This document shows positions 4,345-63,689 of a DNA stretch of 64,000 nt, in pieces. The position numbers and the translations under genes are program-made. How positions within the stretch are numbered: position 1 is the stretch's first letter; each line of letters begins with the position of its first letter. This DNA is from Alviniconcha marisindica (lineage: Eukaryota; Mollusca; Gastropoda; Provannidae): contig JABMCL010001460.1 of NCBI GenBank assembly GCA_018857735.1, forward strand, positions 471,001-535,000, written 5' to 3'. The notes below the pieces were generated by a model. That model was not told the DNA's origin and ran no database searches. It saw only the letters and a list, made by a program, of their open reading frames with translations.

Positions 4345-4427
4345 ATTCTTTTTTCTTTTTCTTTTCTTTCATGGTGCTTTACGTCCACAGAAACCGTATG
4401 GCTTATTAGGGACGGGTTACTTGACCA
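4335..4427 (-). mobile_element. 5'-truncated family A tail, second serial insertion with 11-bp TSD
   Basis: TTACTTGACCA flanks the insert at 4335-4345 and 4417-4427. The insert (4346-4416) is only the last ~45 bp of A plus a pyrimidine run which, on the minus strand, reads as a GAAAGAAAAG-type tail after CACCATG. 5' truncation plus a purine-rich 3' tail plus a TSD is the signature of target-primed reverse transcription. Confidence 0.9.
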
Positions 4428-5180
4428 ACAGGACTCTTCCCTTTTGCACAGAGGAAAGCACACATGTTATTGTTGATCGTGGAGTGCATGGTTAAGTCCG
4501 GCCAATATTACGGAACATCAGAACTAATCATTCACCTCACCTTTCGGTTTCAGGTTCCTGCTGGTGTGGACTGATCTGGGGTTGTTGTATTTTGCGAGGG
4601 AGCCTTCTAATTTAGTGTGATACCGAACTGGACAACTGACACTCCGTTTGACGAGGGCGCCAAGTCTGGGTAAGTTGACAGCTGTACTGACTGATTTGTT
4701 TGTGTACATTTACATTCATGTCCAAACAGAAAACAGTGGGCTCAGGCCAGTGGGGAATGATATTTATAGACACACGCACACTTACACACATGCACGCACA
4801 GGCTATCATCATACCTCTTTGACTAAGCAGGGTGGTAGTGTTACAGTTGTGGCCGTTTTTTTCTGTGCAGACGTCAGTGAACGTATTCATAGAGGAGAAG
4901 AGATCGGAAATAAGTGTGTCGTCGTCTCAGCCTCAGGTGATCTCGATTTCCGGGCCAAATTACGGCTGGGGACAGTTAGGAGTTACTTGTTTTGGGGTAG
5001 CACAGTACGATTAGTAGTGCATTAGGTCAAACCTGCTCTGTCGGCTAAGCTAAAGTGGGGTCTGGCAAGCCTGTGAGTGTCCCAAGCGTTGCAAGTTACG
5101 GCTGAGGACAGTTTGCCCGTTGTGGGGCTGGGGCGGCACAGTAGGCTACAAATTGTGCTTTATGTCAGTCCTGCTCTCTA
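4428..5180. other. Unique sequence, no gene recognised
   Basis: No repeats of note except a short CA run near 4770-4800. The phrases GCACAGTA and CAAATTACGGCTG recur near 4970-5150, suggesting a faint local duplication. Nothing coding is recognised. Confidence 0.5.
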
Positions 5181-5409: not shown

Positions 5410-5437
5410 AAGGAAGTCCTGCTCAGTCGCTTGGAGA

Positions 5438-5642
5438 GAGCTCAGGAGCTGTGTGAAAGTCGAGGTGGTCGTCCTGGGCTCCCCCGTCCCTAATAATATG
5501 CCTTATAGTTCCTGTGGACGTAAAGCAGCATGAAAACGGAACATTGTCAGAGCTCGGGAGCTGTGTGAAGAAAGTCGATGGGGACGTCCTGGGCTCCCCC
5601 GTCCCTAATAAGCCGTATGGTTCCTGTGGACGTAAAGCAACA
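5438..5642 (+). mobile_element. Two family A elements in tandem
   Basis: Units begin with GAGCTCAGGAGCTG at 5438 and GAGCTCGGGAGCTG at 5550, and each ends in GTGGACGTAAAGCARCA. The second has a small insertion (GTGAAGAAAGTCG). Spacing of about 112 bp matches the longer arrays at 29957 and 58383. Confidence 0.85.
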
Positions 5643-6213
5643 GTGAAACGAAACACTTGAAGAAGGGATAGATCTGGCAAGTAGCCCCTGAGTGTTCCAC
5701 CAGTGTGCCACCTCAGTCAGTCAAGGTTGAGTGAGGTTTGAAGTTGCTTTCCGCTCCTTGTGTGTGTGTGTGTGTGTGAGTCGGACGGTCATGTCCAGTG
5801 TGTGTGGTGGACCTGAGCCCTCTCGCTCTCTGTCATCTCTGCACTGAGAATCTGAAGGCCACGACCTTGACTCTCCCCCCCCCCCCCCCCCCCCCCCTTC
5901 CCTTCTGACCCCTGCGCGGTGCTCCCAACTGCCGCTTTGATACCCCACAGCAGCACGGCAGCCCCGCTATAGTGCTGACCATCCCCGCCGTGATCCCAAC
6001 GCTCGCTTGTCGATTAGAAACTCTCGGACAGTAACGGTTTGCTCGCAACAGGATTGCCACTGTTTTGTTGAGGGACAGGGCAGCACCGTTATAACGCTGG
6101 TGTGCATTCCGAGGAGCATGGTGCTTTTGGTGGTGTTGATGTATGTAGGCGCAGCAGTTTGCCACCCGAAATGCTCTGCAGACTTTTTTAAAAAAAATCA
6201 AAAAAAAAATCGG
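5643..6213. other. Unique sequence with GT and poly(C), no gene recognised
   Basis: Holds a GT run (5758-5778) and a C run (5875-5897). The part from 5930 to 6180 is CpG-rich unique sequence that could contain a conserved non-coding element, but nothing specific is recognised. An A-rich patch (6187-6210) follows. Confidence 0.45.
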
Positions 6214-6333
6214 ATAAAGTTGGTTGGTTGAAGCGTTGCTTTACGTCTACTGAAACCGTAGGCTTATTAGGGACGGGAGCCCAGGACGGCCACCTCGACT
6301 TTCACACAGCTCCTGAGCTCTGAATTATAAAGT
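6214..6333 (-). mobile_element. Family A element with probable 7-bp TSD
   Basis: ATAAAGT occurs at 6214-6220 and 6327-6333. Between them is a near full-length reversed A element from TTGCTTTACGTCTACTGAAA to ACACAGCTCCTGAGCTC. The TSD is short, so it is weaker evidence than at 1888 or 4335. Confidence 0.8.
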
Positions 6334-10939: not shown

Positions 10940-11625
10940 GTGAGCAGGTTTGGCCTAGCAGTTAGGCATCAGGTTGGTAGGTGGACTGATGTGGGTTCAG
11001 TTCCCTGCTTTTGGCTGTCCTTTCTGTTCAAAAATTGTGGTTTATGGACACTGCCTTGTGACTGCCCTTCACAATATTTAATGAAACAAACCTTGAAATG
11101 GATGTCATTGTTGCCCTTTGCAATATTTAATGAAACAAACCTTGAAATGGGTCTCATTGTTACTGCAGGTGACTGCTCTTCGCATTATTTAATGAAACAA
11201 ACCTTAAAAGGGATCTCTTCATTGCCCATTTTAATGCAGGAATCATGCTGGTAGTGACAGTGTGGGTATAGTTAATGAAACAAACCTTGAAACGGCTCTC
11301 ATCAGTGCCCATCTTAATACAGGAATCATGCTGGTAGTGACAGTGTAGCACGGGGTATAGTTAATGAAACAAACCTTGAAACGGCTCTCATCAGTGCCCA
11401 TCTTAATACAGGAATCATGCTGGTAGTGACAGTGTAGCACGGGGTATAGTTAATGAAACAAACCTTGAAACGGCTCTCATCAGTGCCCATCTTAATGCAG
11501 GAATCATGCTGGTAGTGACAGTGTAGTGCAAGGTACAGTGTAGTGCAAGGTATAGTTCCCCTCTCCCCACCTCCTGGGATCTCGGTCCCTGCCACTACCT
11601 CTCTGGAGACAACTCTGTGTTAAAG
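10940..11625 (+). mobile_element. tRNA-derived SINE B2, internally expanded
   Basis: The head has A box TGGCCTAGCAG (10951-10961) and a degenerate B box GGTTCAGTTCC (10994-11004). The body follows with GTGGTTTATGGACACTG and TTAATGAAACAAACCTTGAA. The B2 tail (GATCTCGGTCCCTGCC to CTCTGTGTTAAAG) ends the copy. Other copies are ~310 bp; this one is ~685 bp because a body segment is repeated (see 11075-11530). Confidence 0.88.
11075..11530 (+). repeat. Minisatellite grown from the SINE body
   Basis: TTAATGAAACAAACCTTGAA recurs about six times. The first three units are short (about 50-85 bp). The last three are nearly identical ~84-86 bp units running through GGAATCATGCTGGTAGTGAC and TAGCACGGGGTATAG. 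The near identity of the last units suggests recent slippage or unequal exchange. Confidence 0.9.
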
Positions 11626-15424: not shown

Positions 15425-15670
15425 CTGATATAACAGTACTGGTTGACTGGGCATAAAACACCAAGTTACTTACTTCAATCGGGTTTAACCATTTTGTGAT
15501 TTTCTGTGGCGCCCTTTCCCTTCCAGATGCTTGTTTGTTAAGTTTACAAGTATGATATGTACCCATTTAATCATATATATATAATTTCATATTATAAAAA
15601 CTCTTTAGATGTGATTTGCCCTGATATAACTGTACTGGTTGACTGGGTGTAAGACACCAAGTTACTTACT
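15425..15670 (+). mobile_element. Two family K fragments
   Basis: CTGATATAACWGTACTGGTT, then GACTGGGYRTAARACACCAA, then GTTACTTACTT appears at 15425-15475 and 15620-15669. Reversed versions occur at 25516-25560 and 51615-51662. Probably a short retroelement tail; the ~195 bp spacing suggests a local duplication. Confidence 0.65.
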
Positions 15671-16304
15671 TTTGATGTGGTTTTTGCTTGTTAAGTATGG
15701 CACTGTATTGGTGTATGTAGCCAAGTCTGCATGCCCTCAGTATCCCCCCACCCCCTTTGAAAGTCAGTTTGTTGGGTGCATAGCAAATGGTTGATTTGGT
15801 ATTGACTGGAAATGGGCGGGCTTTGGTGACAACATGTTATTTGTAGACAATCATCATCGGTCTTTACTGTGTGTCACTGTTATGATCTAATCTAGTTGTA
15901 TTTATTGGTAATATATGTTTCTTCTTCAACACCACCTTTCTCTGTAAAGTGACCCCAGTTGATCAAGTTAATTATTTTGTTTAAAAAAAAAGAAGTTAAA
16001 AAGATATATGCTAATTTAATATCACAGTGCAAAACATATCATCATATGTGCAAATTTTCTGGGTAAGCCCCTTTTTCAAAACAATAGAACAATAGTTAGT
16101 AAATAAGAAATGTACTTGTCTGGTTGTGGTATGTTGAAGGCATTCATTTATCACGGTTTAACTGTTGTTTCGTCGTTTTGAAAAATGGAGCTTACACCAA
16201 AAAAGTGCACATATTTTGTATTGTCATGATGCATAGTAAATTAGTGTTTCCTTTAACTGTTTAATTGTTTTGGTAGGACTATGCTCTACATGTGTATAGA
16301 ATAT

Positions 16305-23884: not shown

Positions 23885-24104
23885 CACAGAAACCGAAACC
23901 ATAAGGCTTATTAGGGATTCCTGCATTAAGATGGGCAGCGATGAGAGCCATTTTAATGTTTCAGTAGGAAGTGATGAACAAAGTCAAAAGACAGTGTCCA
24001 CAAACCACAACCTTTTTGAAGAGAACGGAGAGCCGAAGCGGTATCGAACCGAGGTCCTTCCGCTTACCAGCCTAACGCCTTACCGCTAGGCCAAACCGGC
24101 TCAC
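23885..24104 (-). mobile_element. SINE B1, reverse, with internal deletion
   Basis: Reversed B box GGTATCGAACC (24040-24050) and A box CCGCTAGGCCA (24083-24093). The B1/A tail (GAAACCATAAGGCTTATTAG) is joined directly to the body at TTCCTGCATTAAGATGGGCA, so the usual C-rich linker is missing. The intact boxes mean the head could still be bound by TFIIIC, though transcription is unproven. Confidence 0.88.
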
Positions 24105-27590: not shown

Positions 27591-27768
27591 TGTGTCATTA
27601 ACGCGTATTTATTTAACTGATATAGTTACGGTAACTGCATCATTTTTGTTGAGTGCTATATAATTATGTATGTATAATTCTGTTGCACTGTGGGCTTTCA
27701 TTGGCTTTAGATATTGCCGTGTGCCAGCGGTTTGAACACGCCTAAAAATAACGACACTGTGTAACACG

Positions 27769-28075
27769 GTGCTTTAACGTCCACAGACATGATAAGGCTT
27801 ATTAGGGGCGGTTGGTGGGGGGGGGGGGGGGGGGGGGGGGGAGGGGAGGTATATACCTATCGCTACACTGTCACCACCAGAATGACTTCTGTATTAAGGG
27901 TGGGCCGCTGGGCAGCGTTGAGAACCATTTTAATGTTTCCTTGTGAGGGACAAAGTCACAAGATAGTGTCCACAGACCGCAACTTTTGAAGAGGAAAGGA
28001 GAGCCGAAGCGGAATCGAGCCGAGGCCCTTCTGCTTACCAGCCTAACGCCTTACCTCTAGGCCAAACCGGCTCAC
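27769..28075 (-). mobile_element. SINE B1, reverse, near full length
   Basis: Order on the minus strand: head with A box (28054-28064) and B box (28011-28021), body with GGTTGCGGTCTGTGGACACT-like sequence, a linker expanded to a G run on + (27819-27841), and the B1/A tail ending TTAAAGCACCG. It shows that the C-rich SINE linker can seed a homopolymer. Confidence 0.92.
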
Positions 28076-28757: not shown

Positions 28758-29072
28758 GTGAGCCGGTTTGGCCTAGCGGTAAGGCGTTAGGTTGGTAAGC
28801 GGAAGGACCTCGGTTCGATACCGCTTCGGCTCTCCTTTCTCTTCAGAAAGGTTGTGGTTTGTGGACACTGTCTTGTGACTTTGTCCATCACTTCCTACTG
28901 AAACATTAAAATGGCTCTCATCGCTGCCCATCTTAATGCAGAAGTCATTCTGGTGGTGACAGTGTAGCGATAGGTATATAATCTCCCTGTCCCCCCAAAT
29001 CCATACCCCCCTTCCCCCCCTTCTCCCCGTCCCTAATAAGCCGTACGGTTTCTGTGGACGTTAAGCACCATG
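28758..29072 (+). mobile_element. SINE B1, best full-length copy
   Basis: tRNA-like head: GAGCCG pairs with CGGCTC as an acceptor stem; A box TGGCCTAGCGG (28769-28779); B box GGTTCGATACC (28812-28822, one mismatch to GGTTCGANTCC). The body has GTGGTTTGTGGACACTGTCT, CTGAAACATTAAAATGGCTC and ATTCTGGTGGTGACAGTGTA. A C-rich linker follows, then the tail GTCCCTAATAAGCCGTACGG...GGACGTTAAGCACCATG shared with family A. ATCGAGA near both ends is a possible short TSD. The parental tRNA is not assigned. Confidence 0.93.
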
Positions 29073-29184
29073 TTTACTATCGAGACCGACCTCTTTTTTC
29101 TTCTTTTTTCTTTTTAAATCCGGGGTGGATGCTTCTCTTGTTTACGTGCGTGCTTGGGCGCTAGGTTGCTTCTACAGTCTTATC

Positions 29185-29435
29185 AGTATCCGAACCTTTC
29201 GGAGGCCGCTGACCGCGTCGGTGGACAGCTCCGCGGAGATAAAGAGTGCCCCTTTAGTGGCATAACTAAATCTGGCAGAGTTTGGAGGAAGGTGCCGGAA
29301 AGCGGTGCTCGGAGTGTGATTAGTACCCGAACCTTCCGGAGGGTGCTGACCGCGTCGGTGGATGGCTGCGCGGAGATAAAGAGTGCCCCTTCTGGCAGAG
29401 TTTGGAGGAAGGTGCCGGAAAGCGATGCTCGCGAT
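29185..29435. repeat. ~137-bp tandem duplication
   Basis: GTAYCCGAACCTTYCGGAGG, GCTGACCGCGTCGGTGGA, GCGGAGATAAAGAGTGCCCC and GGCAGAGTTTGGAGGAAGGT occur in the same order in two adjacent copies (from ~29187 and ~29324). The second lacks ~18 bp (TTAGTGGCATAACTAAA). GC-rich. No family recognised. Confidence 0.9.
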
Positions 29436-29776
29436 CACTGCATGTGATAGTACGTAACATTGAATGGACAGTAGGCGGCCCGTGCGCCATCATCAGCACA
29501 GCCCTCGAAGCCCGTTCAGCCGGGCGCCACTTCTGACGAGGCCTAATTATGTGTGGGTTCATTGCTGCTGAAGCTGTTGATGCTGTGCACTTTTACTACA
29601 GTGGACTGTCGCATGGTGTTCATCGCGAGACACGGCGAGAGATAATTATCTTGTGTGGGGGGTAATTAAGGTTACTACTGTGCTATTGCCGTTTTGCTGG
29701 CTTTGTTCGTCGAGCACAGAGCTGTTGCTGTTTGAAAAAGGTTGCCCGGGACTGGTTCGGTTCCGTGCACACTTGC
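29436..29776. other. Unique sequence, possible conserved non-coding DNA
   Basis: Non-repetitive, with AT-rich words such as CTAATTATG and GATAATTATC among CpG-rich sequence. Nothing coding recognised. Confidence 0.4.
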
Positions 29777-29956
29777 GTGAGCCGATTTTGCCCAGAGGTA
29801 AGGTTAGTTAGGCTGGTAAGCGGACGGCGGCGGTTCGATCCCCTGCTTCGACTGTCCTTTCTCTTCAGAAATTTTGCATTGTGTCAGTTGTGGTTGCTGT
29901 CGTGTGACTTTGCCCCTTACAATTCTTAAGACATTAATAAGGCTGTCCTAGCTGCC
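29777..29956 (+). mobile_element. SINE B, 3'-truncated, fused to a family A array
   Basis: GTGAGCCG head, altered A box TTGCCCAGAGG, B box GGTTCGATCCC (29832-29842) and body to AAGGCTGTCCTAGCTGCC. The rest of the body and tail are replaced by the A array at 29957. Confidence 0.85.
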
Positions 29957-30734
29957 AGAGCTCAGGAGCTGTGTGAAAGTCGAGGTGGGCTCCCCGTTCC
30001 TGATAGTCCGTATGGTCTTTGTGGACGTAAAGCAACATTGAATTTGAACTTGTTGGCTTCAGAGCTCAGGAGCTGTGTGAAAGTAGATTGCCGTCCGGGC
30101 CCCCGTCCTAATTATAGAGTCTTAATGTGGTCTCTTGGAGTAAACACATGAATTTGAACTTGTTGGCTTCAGAGCTCAGGAGCTGTGTGAAAGTAGAGGT
30201 TGCCGTCCTGGGCTCCCCGTCCCTAATAGTCCTTATGGTCTCTATGGACGTAAAGCAACATTGAATTTGAACTTGTTGGCTTCAGAGCTCAGGAGCTGTG
30301 TGAAAGTAGAGGTTGCCGTCCTGGGCTCCCCGTCCCTAATTAGTAGCAGTCCTTAATGTGGTCTCTATGGACGTAAAGCAACATTGAATTTGAATTGTTG
30401 GCTTCAGAGCTCAGGAGCTGTGTGAAAGTAGAGGTTCCGTCCTGGGCTCCCCGTCCCTAATTAGTAGCAGTCCTTAATGTGGTCTCTATGGACGTAAAGC
30501 AACATTGAAGTTGAACTTGTCGGCTTCAGAGTTCAGGAGCTGCGTGAAAGTAGAGGTGGCCGTCTTCGGCTCCCCGTCCCTGTGTGGACGTAAATCAACG
30601 TTGAACTTGAACTGGTTCTATCAGAGCTTAGGAGCTGGGTGAAATTCGAGGTGGCCATCCCGGGCCACTAATAGTCCTTAAATAATTAGGGCCTCTGTGC
30701 TGACGTAAAGCAGCACTGAACTTGAACTCCTAGC
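29957..30734 (+). mobile_element. Family A tandem array, seven units
   Basis: Unit starts at 29958, 30062, 30173, 30285, 30405, 30529 and 30624. Each unit runs from GAGCTCAGGAGCTGTGTGAA to GGACGTAAAGCAACATTGAA plus a short TTGAACTTGTTGGCTTCA junction absent from isolated copies. Units share private variants (GTAGAGGTTGCC for GTCGAGGTGGCC; CTCTATGGACG), so they arose by local amplification rather than independent insertion. Confidence 0.93.
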
Positions 30735-31063
30735 TGCCCGTCTCAGTGCAGAATCATTCTTGTGGTGACAGTGTGGCGTAGTGAGGCATAGTCCGGAGAG
30801 GCACTGGCGGGGACCGCGGTCCCAGGAAGTTGGGCAGTGAGACCATACCTGACGCTACGCTGTCACCACCAGAATGATTTCTGCATTACGATGGGCAGCG
30901 ACGTGAGCCACTTCATTGTTTCGTTAAACGGCGAGGGGCAAAGTCACAAGACGGTGTCCACAAACCACCACTTTTGAAAAGAAAGAGCCGAAGCTTGGAA
31001 TCGAACCGACGTCGTCCGCTTACCGGCCTAACGCCTCCTTACCGCTTGGCCGAACCGGCTCAC
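30735..31063 (-). mobile_element. SINE B2 with an opposing body fragment
   Basis: A short forward piece of the B body (30735-30789) abuts a reversed near-complete B2 copy (about 30790-31063). The reversed copy has its tail at GAGAGGCACTGGCGGGGACC, B box at 30997-31007 and a mutated A box CCGCTTGGCCG at 31042-31052. The opposed body segments could form a hairpin. Confidence 0.85.
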
Positions 31064-31101
31064 ATGGCCCGTTTCTTGGTTGGTTCGATGGTTAGACTTA
31101 A

Positions 31102-31204
31102 TTGTTTAACGCCGAGTTGTCTCCCAAGAGGTACTTGCGCGGACCGAGGTCCCAGGAGGTGGCGGGCAGAAGGAGACTATACCTAACACGCTACACTGTC
31201 ACCA
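31102..31204 (-). mobile_element. SINE B2 tail fragment
   Basis: Reversed B2 tail and linker from TTTAACGCCGAGTTGTCTCC to CTACACTGTCACCA, where a D element interrupts. Confidence 0.8.
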
Positions 31205-31207
31205 TCA

Positions 31208-31376
31208 CATTGTTCAGGAGCTGTGTGAGAAGTCGAGGTGGCCGTCCTGGGCTGTCCGTCCTAACGAGCCTTCTGGTTTCCGTGGACGTAAAGCTATATT
31301 GAACCATGCTTCGGCATTGGTCACAGCTTGTCCCTAATATGTCAACTGACATCTGAGGACATTAAGCATCACTTCA
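31208..31376 (+). mobile_element. Family D element inside a B2 remnant
   Basis: From TTGTTCAGGAGCTGTGTGAG to GAGGACATTAAGCATCAC. SINE body words TGTCACCATCAC on the left and TCATCACCACCAGAATGA on the right suggest insertion in a reversed B copy; the TSD is imperfect. Confidence 0.85.
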
Positions 31377-31393
31377 TCATCACCACCAGAATG

Positions 31394-31696
31394 AGAGCCG
31401 GTTTGGCCTAGCGGTAAGGCGGTAGGCTGGTAAGTAGAAGTGCCTCAGCTCGATGCCGCTTCGGCTCTTCTTTCTCTTCAAAAAGGTTGTGTTTGTGGAT
31501 ACTGTCTCGTGACTTTGTCCCTCACAATTAATGAAACATTAAAATGGCTCTCATCGCTGCCGATCTTAATGCAGGAGTCATTCCGGTGGTGATAGTATAG
31601 CGATAGGTATGTAATCTCCCTCTTCCCCCATCTTCGCCCGTCCCTAATAAGCCTTACGGTTTATGTGGACGTAAATCACCATGAAAGAAGAGAAAG
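31394..31696 (+). mobile_element. SINE B1, full length
   Basis: A box TGGCCTAGCGG (31404-31414); the B box is damaged (AGCTCGATGCC, 31448-31458). Body, C-rich linker, then CGTCCCTAATAAGCCTTACG and GGACGTAAATCACCATGAAA with a purine tail GAAGAGAAAGG. The tail plus purine run matches the truncated A inserts at 4346-4416 and 55280-55344. Confidence 0.92.
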
Positions 31697-32691: not shown

Positions 32692-33272
32692 CAGCGCTCA
32701 GGAGCTGTGTAAAAGTCGAGGTGGCCGTCTTGGGCTCCCCGTCCATACTAGTCCTTATGGCCTCTGTGGACGTAAAGCAACATTAAAAAAAGATATTGCG
32801 AGAGCTCAGTAGCTGTGTGAAAATTGAGGTGCCCGTCCTGGGCTTCCCGTCGCTAACAGTCCGTACGGTCTCTGTGGACCTAAAGCAATATTAAAACTCG
32901 CTGTCTCAGAGCTCAGGAACTGTGTGAAAGTCTGGTAGTCTTTACGGTCTCTGTGGACGTACAGCAACATTTGAAGAGGAAGTACCACAGAGCTCAGGAG
33001 CTGTGTGAAAGTCGAGGTGGACGTCCTGGGCTCCCGTCCATAATAGTCCTTATGGTTTCTGTGGACCTAAAGCAAGGTAGGTAGTGTTGCTTAATGTCCT
33101 CAGATGTCAGTTGACATATTAGGGACAAGCTGAGACCAATGCCGAAGCATGGTTCAATATAGCTTTACGTCCACGGAAACCAGAAGGCTCGTTAGGACGG
33201 ACAGCCCAGGACGGCCACCTCGACTCTCACACAGCTCCTGAACTATGACCTAAAGCAACATTGAACTTGAAC
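32692..33272 (+). mobile_element. Family A array (four units), last unit split by a D element
   Basis: Unit starts near 32694, 32802, 32909 and 32990. One unit is internally deleted (from about 32922). The last unit is interrupted after GACCTAAAGCAA (33064-33075) by a D element and resumes with the same 12 bases at 33247. Confidence 0.9.
33064..33258 (-). mobile_element. Family D element nested in family A, perfect 12-bp TSD
   Basis: GACCTAAAGCAA at 33064-33075 and 33247-33258 flanks a reversed D element (33076-33246). It is full length: a short CTACC-type tail, GTTGCTTAATGTCC module, GGTTCAATATAGC block, TTACGTCCACGG module and head ending TCCTGAACTAT. D was therefore active after the A array formed. 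Confidence 0.93.
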
Positions 33273-44072: not shown

Positions 44073-44191
44073 CCACAAGTTTTCTTTCAGAGCTCAGGGG
44101 CTGTGTGAAAGTCGAAGTGGCCGTCCTGGGCTCCCCGACCCTAATAAGCCTTACGGTTTCTGTGGACGTAAAACAACGCGAAGCCACAAGT
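44073..44191 (+). mobile_element. Family A element with 8-bp TSD
   Basis: CCACAAGT lies at 44073-44080 and 44184-44191. The insert runs TTTCTTTCAGAGCTCAGGGG to GGACGTAAAACAACGCGAAG. Confidence 0.82.
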
Positions 44192-47708: not shown

Positions 47709-48028
47709 AGGCGAGCGGGTCTGGCGTAGCGGTAAGGCGTTGTTCGGCTGGTAAGCAGAGGGACCTCGGTTCGATCCCGCTGCGGCTCTTCTTCCTCTCT
47801 CTTGAAAAGTTGTGGCCTGTGGACGCTGTCTTTGTGACTTTGCCCCTGACAGTTAATGAAACATTAGTGTGGCTCGCATCGTTGCCTGTCTTGACCTGAG
47901 GCAGAAATCACTCTGGTGGTTACAGTGCACGTTACGGTTTAGTCTCTCTCTTCCCCCACCTCCCCCCCCCCCTTCCCCACCAGTACCTCTTCGGAGGCAC
48001 CTTGGCGTTAAACTAGTTTAGCCAACCA
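47709..48028 (+). mobile_element. SINE B2, full length
   Basis: A box TGGCGTAGCGG (47722-47732), B box GGTTCGATCCC (47768-47778), body with GTGGCCTGTGGACGCTGTCT, C-rich linker, and B2 tail ACCTCTTCGGAGGCACCTTG plus GCGTTAAACTAGTTTAGCCA. Some body indels near 47890. Confidence 0.92.
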
Positions 48029-48149: not shown

Positions 48150-48351
48150 GGAGCTCAGGAGCTGTGTGAAAGTCGAGGTGGCCGTCCTGGGCTCCCCGTC
48201 CCTAATAGTCCTTATGGTCTCTGTGGACGTAAAGCAACATCGAACTGTCAGGGGAGATCAGAGCTCAGGAGCTGTGTGAAAGACGAGGTGGCCGTCCTGG
48301 GCTCCCCGTCCCTAACAGTCCTGATGGTCTCTGTGGACGTAACGCAACATT
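48150..48351 (+). mobile_element. Two family A elements in tandem
   Basis: Starts at 48151 and 48261, ~110 bp apart, both complete to GGACGTAAMGCAACAT. Both are close to consensus. Confidence 0.9.
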
Positions 48352-50237: not shown

Positions 50238-50428
50238 CATGGTGCTTAACGTCCACAGAAACCATACGGCTTATTAGGGACGGGCGAAGGTGGGGGAAGT
50301 GGGATATTATATACCTATCGCTACACTGTCGCCGCCAGAATGACTCCTGCATTAAGATGAGCAGCGACGAGAGCCATTTTAATGTTTCATTAATTGTGAG
50401 GGACAAAATCACAAGACGGTGTCCGCAA
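50238..50428 (-). mobile_element. SINE B1, reverse, 5'-truncated
   Basis: Tail (GGTGCTTAACGTCCACAGAA), linker and body (TCGCTACACTGTCGCCGCCA to GACGGTGTCCGCAAAGGAC) are present; the tRNA head is missing. 5' truncation fits incomplete reverse transcription. Confidence 0.9.
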
Positions 50429-50564
50429 AGGACAGACTTAAACATTGCGATGTTTTTTGTTTTTATTTCACCAGGTTTGACCTTCGCGGTTGTCTGCGCG
50501 TTAAATATCTTAAGCAAGCAAGCAAGCAACCAACCAATAATATACCAGCCGACAGCAGAGCTGA
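50429..50564. other. Unique sequence
   Basis: Short GCAA and CCAA repeats only. Confidence 0.5.
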
Positions 50565-55159: not shown

Positions 55160-55515
55160 AACGAGTTTTGAATATCCACCAAAGCGGTTACAGCGCTGTT
55201 TGGTTGTTACGTGGCTGGTGCTACGTGAAACTGCTGCCGTCTCGGCGCAAGTTCTGTGTACACCATACGACCATGCACCTTCTTTCTTTTCTTTCATGGT
55301 GCTTTACATCCACAGAAACCATAAGGCTTATTAGGGACGGGCCCTGCACCAGTTTACAGTGTCACTTTATTCGAAGCCACATACGTAGGATGCAAGTGTA
55401 GTTTAACTGTAACCCGCCACCTGCACTTACGGCAGAATTACCGGGATCATTTACGTGCTACTGCGGTATCCTAGGGGTGGAACGCATACCGAAATAAGAG
55501 TCAGCACAATACTGC
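55160..55515 (+). mobile_element. Family G repeat carrying a family A insertion
   Basis: Matches 14634-14905 on both sides of the insertion: CACCAAAGCGGTTACAGCGC, GTTCTGTGTACACCATACGA on the left; GAAGCCACATACGTAGGATG, GGGATCATTTACGTGCTACT and TAGGGGTGGAACGCATACCG on the right. Confidence 0.85.
55274..55350 (-). mobile_element. 5'-truncated family A tail with TSD TGCACC
   Basis: TGCACC at 55274-55279 and 55345-55350 flanks a 65-bp insert. On the minus strand it reads as the last part of the A/B1 tail, CACCATG, then GAAAGAAAAGAAAGAA. The paralogue near 14720 has one TGCACC and no insert. Confidence 0.9.
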
Positions 55516-58382: not shown

Positions 58383-58765
58383 GAGCTTAGGGGCTGTGTG
58401 AATGAGTGGAGGTGGCCGTCCTGAACACTGAACTTGAAAACTGACAGAGCTGCCGAGCTGTGTGAAAGTCAAGTGGCCGTCCTGGGCTCCCCCCGTCCCT
58501 AGTAGTCCGTATGGTCTCTGTGGACGTAAAGCAACACTGAGCTTGAAAACTGACAGAGCTGCCGAGCTGTGTGAAAGACGAGGTGGCCGTCCTGGGCTCC
58601 CCGTCCCAAATAGTCCTTATGGTCTCTGCGGACGTAAAGCAGCACTGAGCTTGAACACTTGACAGTCAGAGCTCAGGAGCTGTGTGGAAGTCGAGGTGGC
58701 CGTCCTGGGCCCCCCGTCCCTAATAGTCCCTGTGGTGCCTGTGGACGGGAAAGCAGCATTGAACT
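58383..58765 (+). mobile_element. Family A tandem array, four units
   Basis: Starts near 58383, 58447, 58556 and 58668. The first is internally deleted. Units 2 and 3 share the private head GAGCTGCCGAGCTGTGTGAA and junction TTGAAAACTGACA, showing local duplication. Confidence 0.9.
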
Positions 58766-58795: not shown

Positions 58796-59106
58796 TGAGC
58801 CGGTTTGGCCTAGCGGTAACTGTAAGGCCACGTCGGTTCGATACCCTGCTTCGGCTCTCCCGTCTCTTCAAAAGTTGTCGTTTATGGACACCGTCTTGTG
58901 ACTTTGCTCCTTACAATTAACGAAGCATTGAAATGGCTCACGTCGCTACCCATCGTAATGCAGAAATCGTCCAGGTGCTGACAGCGTAGCGTTAGGTATA
59001 GTCTCTCCACCCCTCACCCTCCACCCCTCCCACCGCCCCCACCTCCCATGGATCTCGGTCCCCGCCAGCACCTCTTCGGAGACGACTCGGTGTTAACTAA
59101 GTGTAA
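58796..59106 (+). mobile_element. SINE B2, full length
   Basis: A box TGGCCTAGCGG (58805-58815), B box GGTTCGATACC (58835-58845) with a shortened spacer, body with GTTTATGGACACCGTCTTGT, C-rich linker, and B2 tail ATCTCGGTCCCCGCCAGCAC plus CTTCGGAGACGACTCGGTGT. Confidence 0.92.
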
Positions 59107-63489: not shown

Positions 63490-63689
63490 ACCGTTAAGTC
63501 TGATCATCACAGTTCAGGAGCTGTGTGAGAGTCGAGGTGGCCGGCCTGGGCTGTCCGTCCTAACGAGCCTTCTGGTTTCCGTGGACGTAAAGCTATATTG
63601 AACCATGCTTCGGCATTGGTCTCAGCTTGTCCCTAATAATATGTCAACCGACATCCGAGGACGTTAAGCAACACAACCGAACCGTTAAG
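63490..63689 (+). mobile_element. Family D element, full length, probable 9-bp TSD
   Basis: ACCGTTAAG occurs at 63490-63498 and 63681-63689. Between them CAGTTCAGGAGCTGTGTGAG to GAGGACGTTAAGCAACAC includes both tail modules and the GAACCATGCTTCGGCATTGG block. Confidence 0.88.

Follow-up and report, generated by a model that had tools for sequence, protein, structure and literature searches.

In the gastropod Alviniconcha marisindica, a short interspersed element (SINE) appears to have exchanged its 3' tail for one of a class that ends long interspersed elements (LINEs) coding for RNase H. We analysed a stretch of 64,000 bases (bases 471001-535000 of contig 1631; hereafter the window), in which simple and tandem repeats abound, together with its genome assembly of 817.6 Mb (~818 Mb) in 2806 contigs. 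The SINE occurs with two alternative tails, T1 and T2. T1-like tails also end family A, a hairpin element without a pair of RNA polymerase III (Pol III) promoter boxes, and a tail of LINE type ends the related family B. Taken as a whole, we consider it fairly probable that a T2-tailed SINE came to carry T1 by way of the tail class of RNase H-bearing LINEs, and that families A and B live on related tails.

According to this account, a tRNA-derived SINE would first have ended in T2 and owed its copying to LINE machinery that has since aged or disappeared. One SINE lineage would subsequently have swapped everything 3' of a C-rich tract for T1, presumably by template switching within that tract. 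With T1 being of the class that ends several RNase H-bearing LINE families here, the SINE would have come under living LINE machinery and so expanded. The two-stem tail is probably the binding site of the LINE reverse transcriptase, which would start on the simple repeat at a nicked target and copy towards the 5' end, leaving duplications of ~8-16 bases. Family A would use a T1-like tail in the same way, and family B would be a younger derivative with a LINE-type tail behind the old one.

A tRNA-derived SINE with two tails

The SINE head contains A and B Pol III boxes with one mismatch in total, a fit that none of 500 shuffles equalled. The tRNA model RF00005 aligns over its full length (1-71 of 71) at 28762-28831 (23.2 bits) and in the reverse-strand copy at 27769 (24.3 bits); neither value reaches the gathering score of 29, at which Rfam gave no match in the window, and ARAGORN found no tRNA there. 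The forward copy at 28758-29073 had 40 scored matches among 2439 genome candidates, itself included, that were 96-100% identical over nearly all of its 316 bases. In most of the 30 genome copies read, the 3' terminus consists of CACCATG and a variable number of TTAC repeats, and exact target site duplications (TSDs) of at least 8 bases flank 25 of 29 T1 copies (the window copy excluded), compared with 0.3% for exchanged flanks. Such duplications are a mark of target-primed reverse transcription. The element thus combines the tRNA-related, two-box head of a tRNA-derived SINE with its target duplications and terminal simple repeat.

T1 reads GTCCCTAATAAGCC...GTTAAGCACCATG, then (TTAC)n, and is laid out as GTCC CTAAT AAGCC-GTAC-GGTTT CTGT GGAC GTTAAGCACCATG. 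T2 is best written GATCTCGGTCCCCGCCAGTACCTCTTCGGAGACAACTCGGCGTTAAAC (...CGGCGTTAAAC), often with TTTAACCAACC-like repeats next to it; the preliminary description, made from the window sequence alone, had rightly distinguished this tail, although the ending GTGTTAA that it gave looks like a decayed CGGCGTTAAAC. With up to three mismatches allowed, the window contains the 14-mer GTCCCTAATAAGCC 36 times, where 3.25 occurrences would be expected. Genome-wide, a 21-base piece of the T1 end has 12,763 exact occurrences and the exact T2 31-mer has 151, a ratio that is indicative only because the patterns differ in length; control counts were zero for both and for the family A 35-mer given below. T1 is the young and abundant tail, and T2 the old one.

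The tail class of RNase H-bearing LINEs

A two-stem tail, with an outer stem of 4 bp, an inner stem of 5 bp, a short A-rich end and a simple repeat, is found on five families of LINEs bearing RNase H, here named LINEs a to e. The reverse transcriptase domain RVT_1 was scored at 150 of 6112 candidates, and 12 LINE 3' regions were read first. Three of these (L065, L069 and L071, one copy each of LINEs a, b and c) code for RNase H (PF00075; 63, 62.6 and 62.8 bits) and end GTCC(C/T)TAATATG...GGACAT(T/G)AA. In LINE-a on contig C1533, RVT_1 (5516-6295, reverse strand) and RNase H (4493-4882, reverse strand) lie in one open frame of 1260 codons. LINEs a to c thus have the plan of a single reading frame with reverse transcriptase followed by RNase H, and LINEs d and e, reached via RNase H matches, presumably share it. 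All five probably belong to the I superfamily, into which RNase H-bearing LINEs fall. A protein search for a clade name returned 105 matches, mostly unnamed, the named ones including predicted proteins of mantis shrimp and kissing bug.

Using the 420-residue end of L071 as query gave 110 matches (100 scored of 1230 candidates). Of 20 further 3' ends read after this search, 17 had a tail of this class of their own, whole or degraded; L088 and L089 had none, and L083 had a family B-like tail only. Scoring of RNase H at 150 of 338 candidates then led to another 35 stretches, six of which revisited loci already covered. The inner stems are ATGTC-ATCT-GACAT in LINE-a, ATGCT-TTT-AGCAT in LINE-b, ATGTC-AACCC-GACAT in LINE-c and TAACC-CTTTGT-GGTTG in LINE-e, and the LINE-d tail reads GCCC TGATA TAACC-GCACC-GGTTG ACT GGGC GTAAAACACCA(ACTT)n. 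When the tail types were compared by eye, five of the nine pairs (six with G-U) had changed on both sides with pairing kept, i.e., the class is maintained on LINEs by compensatory changes. A strict scan found all nine pairs in 26 of 67 stretches, one of which (L084) is a family B copy, leaving 25 of 67 LINE ends compared with 2 of 1340 mononucleotide shuffles, an excess that is partly by construction, since the scan uses letters from the tails themselves.

Judged by letters and layout, T1 belongs to this class. It has the bulge CTAAT, the outer stem GTCC/GGAC and TTAAG in common with LINEs a and b, and CACCA together with the TTAC terminal repeat in common with LINE-d. The window T1, the family B tail and the LINE-d-type tail take nearly one folded shape, and against shuffles the family B-type tail folds with a z of -3.40 and the LINE-d-type tail with -1.91.

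Two further observations concern these LINEs. At 6 of the 17 LINE ends with a tail of their own, that tail is followed, at a distance of up to a few hundred bases, by a copy of family B (L074, L079, L084, L090) or of the T1 SINE (L078, L085), possibly reflecting a site preference for LINE ends. RNase H-coding fragments also recur at a spacing of ~2,210 bases at C86:1902-8864 and C1119:12751-24139, as in a satellite formed from a LINE piece.

The source of T1

The preliminary description had proposed that each tail is shared with a partner LINE. The T1 class does end LINEs in this genome; however, none of the 67 LINE stretches held a LINE carrying T2 or the exact inner stem of T1 (AAGCC/GGTTT), so the partner is identified by tail class only. 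Tail sharing is therefore supported for the tail class, as far as sequence comparison reaches, and not for an exact LINE/SINE pair. On a LINE, T1 would read CTCCCCGTCCCTAATAAGCC...CACCATG(TTAC)n, and T2 on a LINE remnant would be expected to end ...CTCTTCGGAGACAACTCGGCGTTAAAC plus AACC-like repeats. Matches to T1 in LINE stretches were either SINE copies behind the LINE (L078, L085, L151) or on the opposite strand (L080, L123, L124). Stretches not shown to carry RNase H (L061-L064, L068, L070, L072) gave no match of note to T1 or T2, and open frames of at least 110 codons in the window revealed no evident LINE by inspection, no domain-library scan of these having been made. Eight of the 151 exact T2 places were read, none clearly a LINE: six had the SINE body, one was a 5'-truncated T2 copy by eye and one was without either.

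We also tried TTG before exact T1, as it stands before the tails of LINEs a-c, as a sign of a LINE, and rejected it. No LINE was recognised at the 16 genome places read, which comprised eight SINEs, three family A copies, four places with neither upstream (two with a target duplication by eye) and one tandem array.

The LINE partner of T1 may be a low-copy LINE outside those read, or T1 may have been gained via family A. Family A is ~90 bases long and consists of a hairpin, GAGCTCAGGA...TCCTGGGCTC, followed by a T1-like tail. The claim that the T1 tail is also the 3' end of this family holds for the many copies that end in a tail ~79-95% identical to T1, but the two are not the same, with GTAAAGCAACA where T1 has GTTAAGCACCATG and AGTCC for AAGCC in many copies. 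That the SINE took T1 from family A by template switching in the C-rich tract, and not directly from a LINE, is a credible possibility to which we give somewhat less weight than to a direct LINE origin. CTCCCC is often found immediately ahead of GTCCCTAATAAGCC in both family A and the SINE, beyond the stem itself; family A in the window holds both AGTCC and AAGCC forms, the latter being the form of the SINE copies; and the capture of other SINEs' tails has been proposed for salmon SINEs (Matveev 2007, by its title as cited in PMC3272025). On the other hand, family A ends differently from the SINE, whose (TTAC)n terminal repeat is that of LINE-d, and a common LINE source accounts for the tails of both.

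We regard it as unlikely that T1 rides on a LINE without RNase H and that the common architecture reflects convergence on one binding mode. Such a LINE would fit with exact T1 being the own end of no LINE read, and LINEs not shown to carry RNase H amounted to merely nine stretches, two of them largely or wholly N. Against it stands the sharing of actual letters with LINEs a, b and d.

Families A and B

The preliminary description had treated family A as one element lacking Pol III boxes. The lack of a box pair was borne out, the best A and B pair having five mismatches, with 264 of 500 shuffles as good. As a single element it did not hold up, because part of the apparent family A is a second element with another tail, family B. 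The family A head is abundant, its 35-mer having 1,904 exact genome occurrences, and the 42 complete copies have a mean identity of 87.3%. Family B is ~162 bases long and joins a variant of the family A hairpin to two successive tails, the first degenerate and the second of the LINE a/c type, with a linker of ~35 bases between them. Its best A and B pair has four mismatches (124 of 500 shuffles as good), with an A-box-like stretch without mismatch and no B box. Family B copies have diverged less, their mean identity to one reference string being 93.7%, and duplications flank 12 of 17 complete copies compared with 0.9% for exchanged flanks. We read the LINE-type tail behind the older tail as a second, independent tail gain.

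An alternative that we consider quite improbable is that family A copies are just LINE 3' ends with the 5' part cut off, so that family A would not be a separate element. It has no promoter box pair and does end in a LINE-class tail. Duplications of at least 8 bases flank merely 9 of the 42 complete copies, against 3.3% for exchanged flanks, and five of these nine are tandem-array units in the window, which makes them weak evidence for single copies. However, 5' starts pile up at fixed positions: position 1 is the start of 39 of the 146 family A matches and position 44 that of 72, which are bare tails of the kind also seen with the SINE, and 19 of 24 family B matches start within positions 1-8. 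In addition, the hairpin occurs in LINE orientation in 4 of 67 LINE stretches, always as part of a family B copy that follows the tail of the LINE itself and never upstream of that tail. Loci L001 and L031, inside the window, were excluded from these counts for families A and B, as well as from the tail-only test and the tally of T1 matches below.

Probable replacement of T2 by T1

When T2 copy 58796 without its last 11 bases was used as a genome query, matches other than itself were 71-83% identical, and the 30 loci cut from this search comprised 26 T1-tailed and 4 T2-tailed copies, itself included. Across 95 body matches in the window and the loci cut from the genome, T1 alone followed within 260 bases in 79, T2 alone in 10, neither in 6 and both in none. 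Several of these matches can stem from one copy, five coming from copy 10940, three of which are among the six without a tail. In a tree of 82 bodies, seven T2 copies group on long branches and are joined by the copy at 29777, whose tail label in both this count and the tree is that of an inserted family A and not its own. T2 copies are 69-92% identical to their own consensus and T1 copies 71-99.6%, with a mean of 94%.

Two tails on one SINE lineage, as first described, are thus supported, with T2 on the most diverged bodies. Given that T2 bodies group together and that no body match is followed by both tails, one replacement at the C-rich tract fits better than alternative deletions. A single replacement of T2 by T1 within this tract is the simplest reading, and divergence in the unrooted tree suggests the direction from T2 to T1. 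That T1 and T2 are parts of one ancestral SINE from which one or the other was deleted, which the preliminary description had named as the outcome that would speak against tail exchange, would fit with both subfamilies sharing the C-rich tract up to CCCCCACCTCC, but is highly improbable in view of the absence of two-tailed copies, the limitation of T2 to diverged bodies and the position of both tails at the same terminus, each with its own simple repeat.

Besides the circularity of the strict scan and the failure to find the exact T1 stem or T2 on a LINE, several observations weigh against the account of a T2-tailed SINE passing to a LINE-class T1. T1 is merely ~67-74% identical to LINE tails over 38-43 positions, and neither T1 (z of -0.89) nor T2 (z of -0.24) folds better alone than its shuffles. 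The T2 group adjoins the most diverged T1 copies in the tree, with a support of 0.70 for the group and 0.32-0.87 inside it. The T2 sample is seven bodies, one of which (10940) was labelled by hand, and the SINE copies were picked by similarity to two queries, which biases the proportions.

Tail-only copies

Tails also occur alone, as insertions of ~45 nucleotides with target duplications of their own. Among tails without the SINE, family A or family B before them, and with flanks containing N or too short excluded, 11 of 36 had a duplication of at least 8 bases at the stem base compared with 2% for exchanged flanks; two of the 11, in L028, are tandem-array units. Within other elements, whose tails should show no such duplication, the test was positive at 0 of 16 tails in family B, 2 of 76 in the SINE and 4 of 48 in family A, and at 1 of 3 places that had both the SINE and family A upstream. 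Examples with duplications are found in L059 (AATAGTGATCC) and L014 (TCTGTCTTTTCC), by eye in L104 and L102, and in the window at 4370-4416 on the reverse strand (TGGTCAAGTAA). The window also has a tail-only T1 copy at 55295-55341 (reverse strand), where inspection shows a GGTGCA repeat at either end, too short for the TSD cut-off used, and a tail-only copy of the LINE-d tail (T3) at 15618-15671 (forward strand), with an imperfect 10-bp flanking repeat by eye and a negative exact test.

The 123 T1 matches that reach the tail end comprise 69 complete copies, 27 in family A, 14 cut in the body, 1 cut in the C-rich tract, 11 starting at the stem base and 1 inside the tail. The 11 stem-base starts fall in a stretch of 13 bases, and two of them (L059:1423 and L028:2959) look like family A remnants. 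Half of the 14 body-cut matches start at 237-238, most of this half being array units in L028 and L042, and some truncations reflect the end of a locus. Tail-only copies are most simply explained if reverse transcription meets a strong stop immediately behind the stem. It is conceivable, but we think it doubtful, that the two-stem tail is itself mobile, with ~45-nucleotide tail RNAs of the T1, LINE-a/c and LINE-d types inserted repeatedly, even twice per site; the SINE, families A and B and the LINEs would then be different cargoes on one minimal retroposon.

Two tail-only insertions stand in series at one target in L059:1784-1898, and two LINE-d-type tails do so in L056:1881-1985, in the order duplication, tail, duplication, tail, duplication. 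T1 tails also form tandem arrays with a period of ~80 bases at C11:702560-703564 and L028:2259-2564, with 11 exact 21-mers in ~1 kb on C11.

Relation to known systems

Mollusc SINEs have reportedly been studied by Matetovici and colleagues. Tail sharing and tail switching are known kinds of behaviour. A 3' stem-loop is recognised by stringent LINEs, which also mobilise the SINEs that have it in common with them (PMC4176376), and a survey lists 58 SINEs with a LINE tail, with CR1 and RTE predominant among the partners, one SINE paired with I-clade LINEs (Gecko, in a mosquito) and one with the Ingi-related Vingi (PMC3747384). Given that predominance, an RNase H-bearing LINE class adds a less studied partner. 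The pairs UnaSINE/UnaL2 and Bov-tA/BovB, as well as zebrafish L2 LINEs, have a 3' stem-loop and a tail common to LINE and SINE (PMC4176376, PMC3747384), and target duplications and a terminal simple repeat are found here too. In contrast to pairs of the UnaSINE/UnaL2 and Bov-tA/BovB type, the LINEs here carry RNase H, the tail has two stems and the partner is known by class only. The Gecko SINE of Aedes aegypti is also tRNA-headed and has a tail from the I clade, to which the present LINEs may be related; neither a tail switch nor a companion without boxes is named for Gecko in Table 1 of PMC3747384.

Tail exchange has a precedent in Nve-Nin-DC-SINE-1, -2 and -3, three subfamilies of one sea-anemone SINE with the tails of L2-22, CR1-5 and CR1-15 (PMC3747384, Table 1), and shared and chimeric tails are described in a moth (PMC3272025). 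The sea-anemone tails are of L2 and CR1, whereas the new tail here is of an RNase H-bearing LINE class. Bov-A2, MAR4, RTESINE1 and Entamoeba SINE-like elements resemble families A and B in being short and LINE-tailed with no tRNA promoter listed (PMC3747384, Table 1). Their 5' part is listed as a LINE 5' end or unknown (PMC3747384), whereas a hairpin forms the start of families A and B, and in family B one tail follows another.

Three features here vary these known kinds, namely a two-stem tail on an RNase H-bearing LINE class, the element with one tail behind another and the tail-only copies, the last two being unusual. A literature search, outside which most subscription papers lay, turned up no description of tail-only copies or of RNase H LINE partners. 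One RNA structure, kept by compensatory change in five LINE families, is thus found on a SINE, a box-less hairpin element, its two-tailed relative and as bare tails. This makes testable in one genome what the minimum RNA for a stringent LINE enzyme is, and how parasites change hosts once their LINE dies.

Copies in the window

The SINE head and body were found at 28758, 31394, 27761-28075 (reverse strand), 10940, 47713, 58796 and 30825-31063 (reverse strand), i.e., in seven of the eight copies first listed as sharing a head; the eighth, at 50238-50439 (reverse strand), is headless and 5'-truncated at approximately model position 91. T1 does end the four copies to which it had been assigned, namely this truncated copy and the complete ones at 28758-29073 (forward), 31394-31683 (forward) and 27761-28075 (reverse, with its tRNA model match at 28002-28071). 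Of the four copies said to end in T2, those at 58796-59096 (forward, GATCTCGGTCCCCGCC...GGTGTTAA, 11 bases beyond the end of the genome query) and 10940-11623 (forward) do so, whereas the forward copy at 47709-48013 has the T2 stem-loop and a GGCGTTAAAC end without ATCTCGGTCCC, and the reverse copy at 30790-31063 is broken within the stem-loop and lacks the terminal GTTAA. Two copies had been missed: a T1 copy with an internal deletion between body and tail at 23892-24104 (reverse strand), and the 5' part of an old copy at 29777-29956 (forward), which is split by a family A array and resumes at ~30739-30789.

The body of the old T2 copy at 10940 is enlarged by an 89-bp tandem repeat (11189-11526). 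The T1 copies at 31394, 50238 (reverse), 4370 (reverse) and 55295 (reverse) have an A/G-rich repeat in place of (TTAC)n, which may mark a second source or driver.

The array inside the 29777 copy has approximately seven family A units (29957-30727, forward) between 11-bp target duplications, TCCTAGCTGCC, at 29946-29956 and 30728-30738. Family A is also present as two units at 48151-48350 and as a single complete copy at 44088-44177, both on the forward strand. Complete family B copies, with the family A-like hairpin, degenerate first tail, linker and LINE-type tail, lie at 33085-33246 (reverse, TSD TTGCTTTAGGTC), 31209-31371 (forward) and 63511-63673 (forward). Short tandem arrays of family A at 5437-5655, 29986-30581, 32696-32896, 48151-48350 and 58445-58758 have linkers that are alike within an array and different between arrays.

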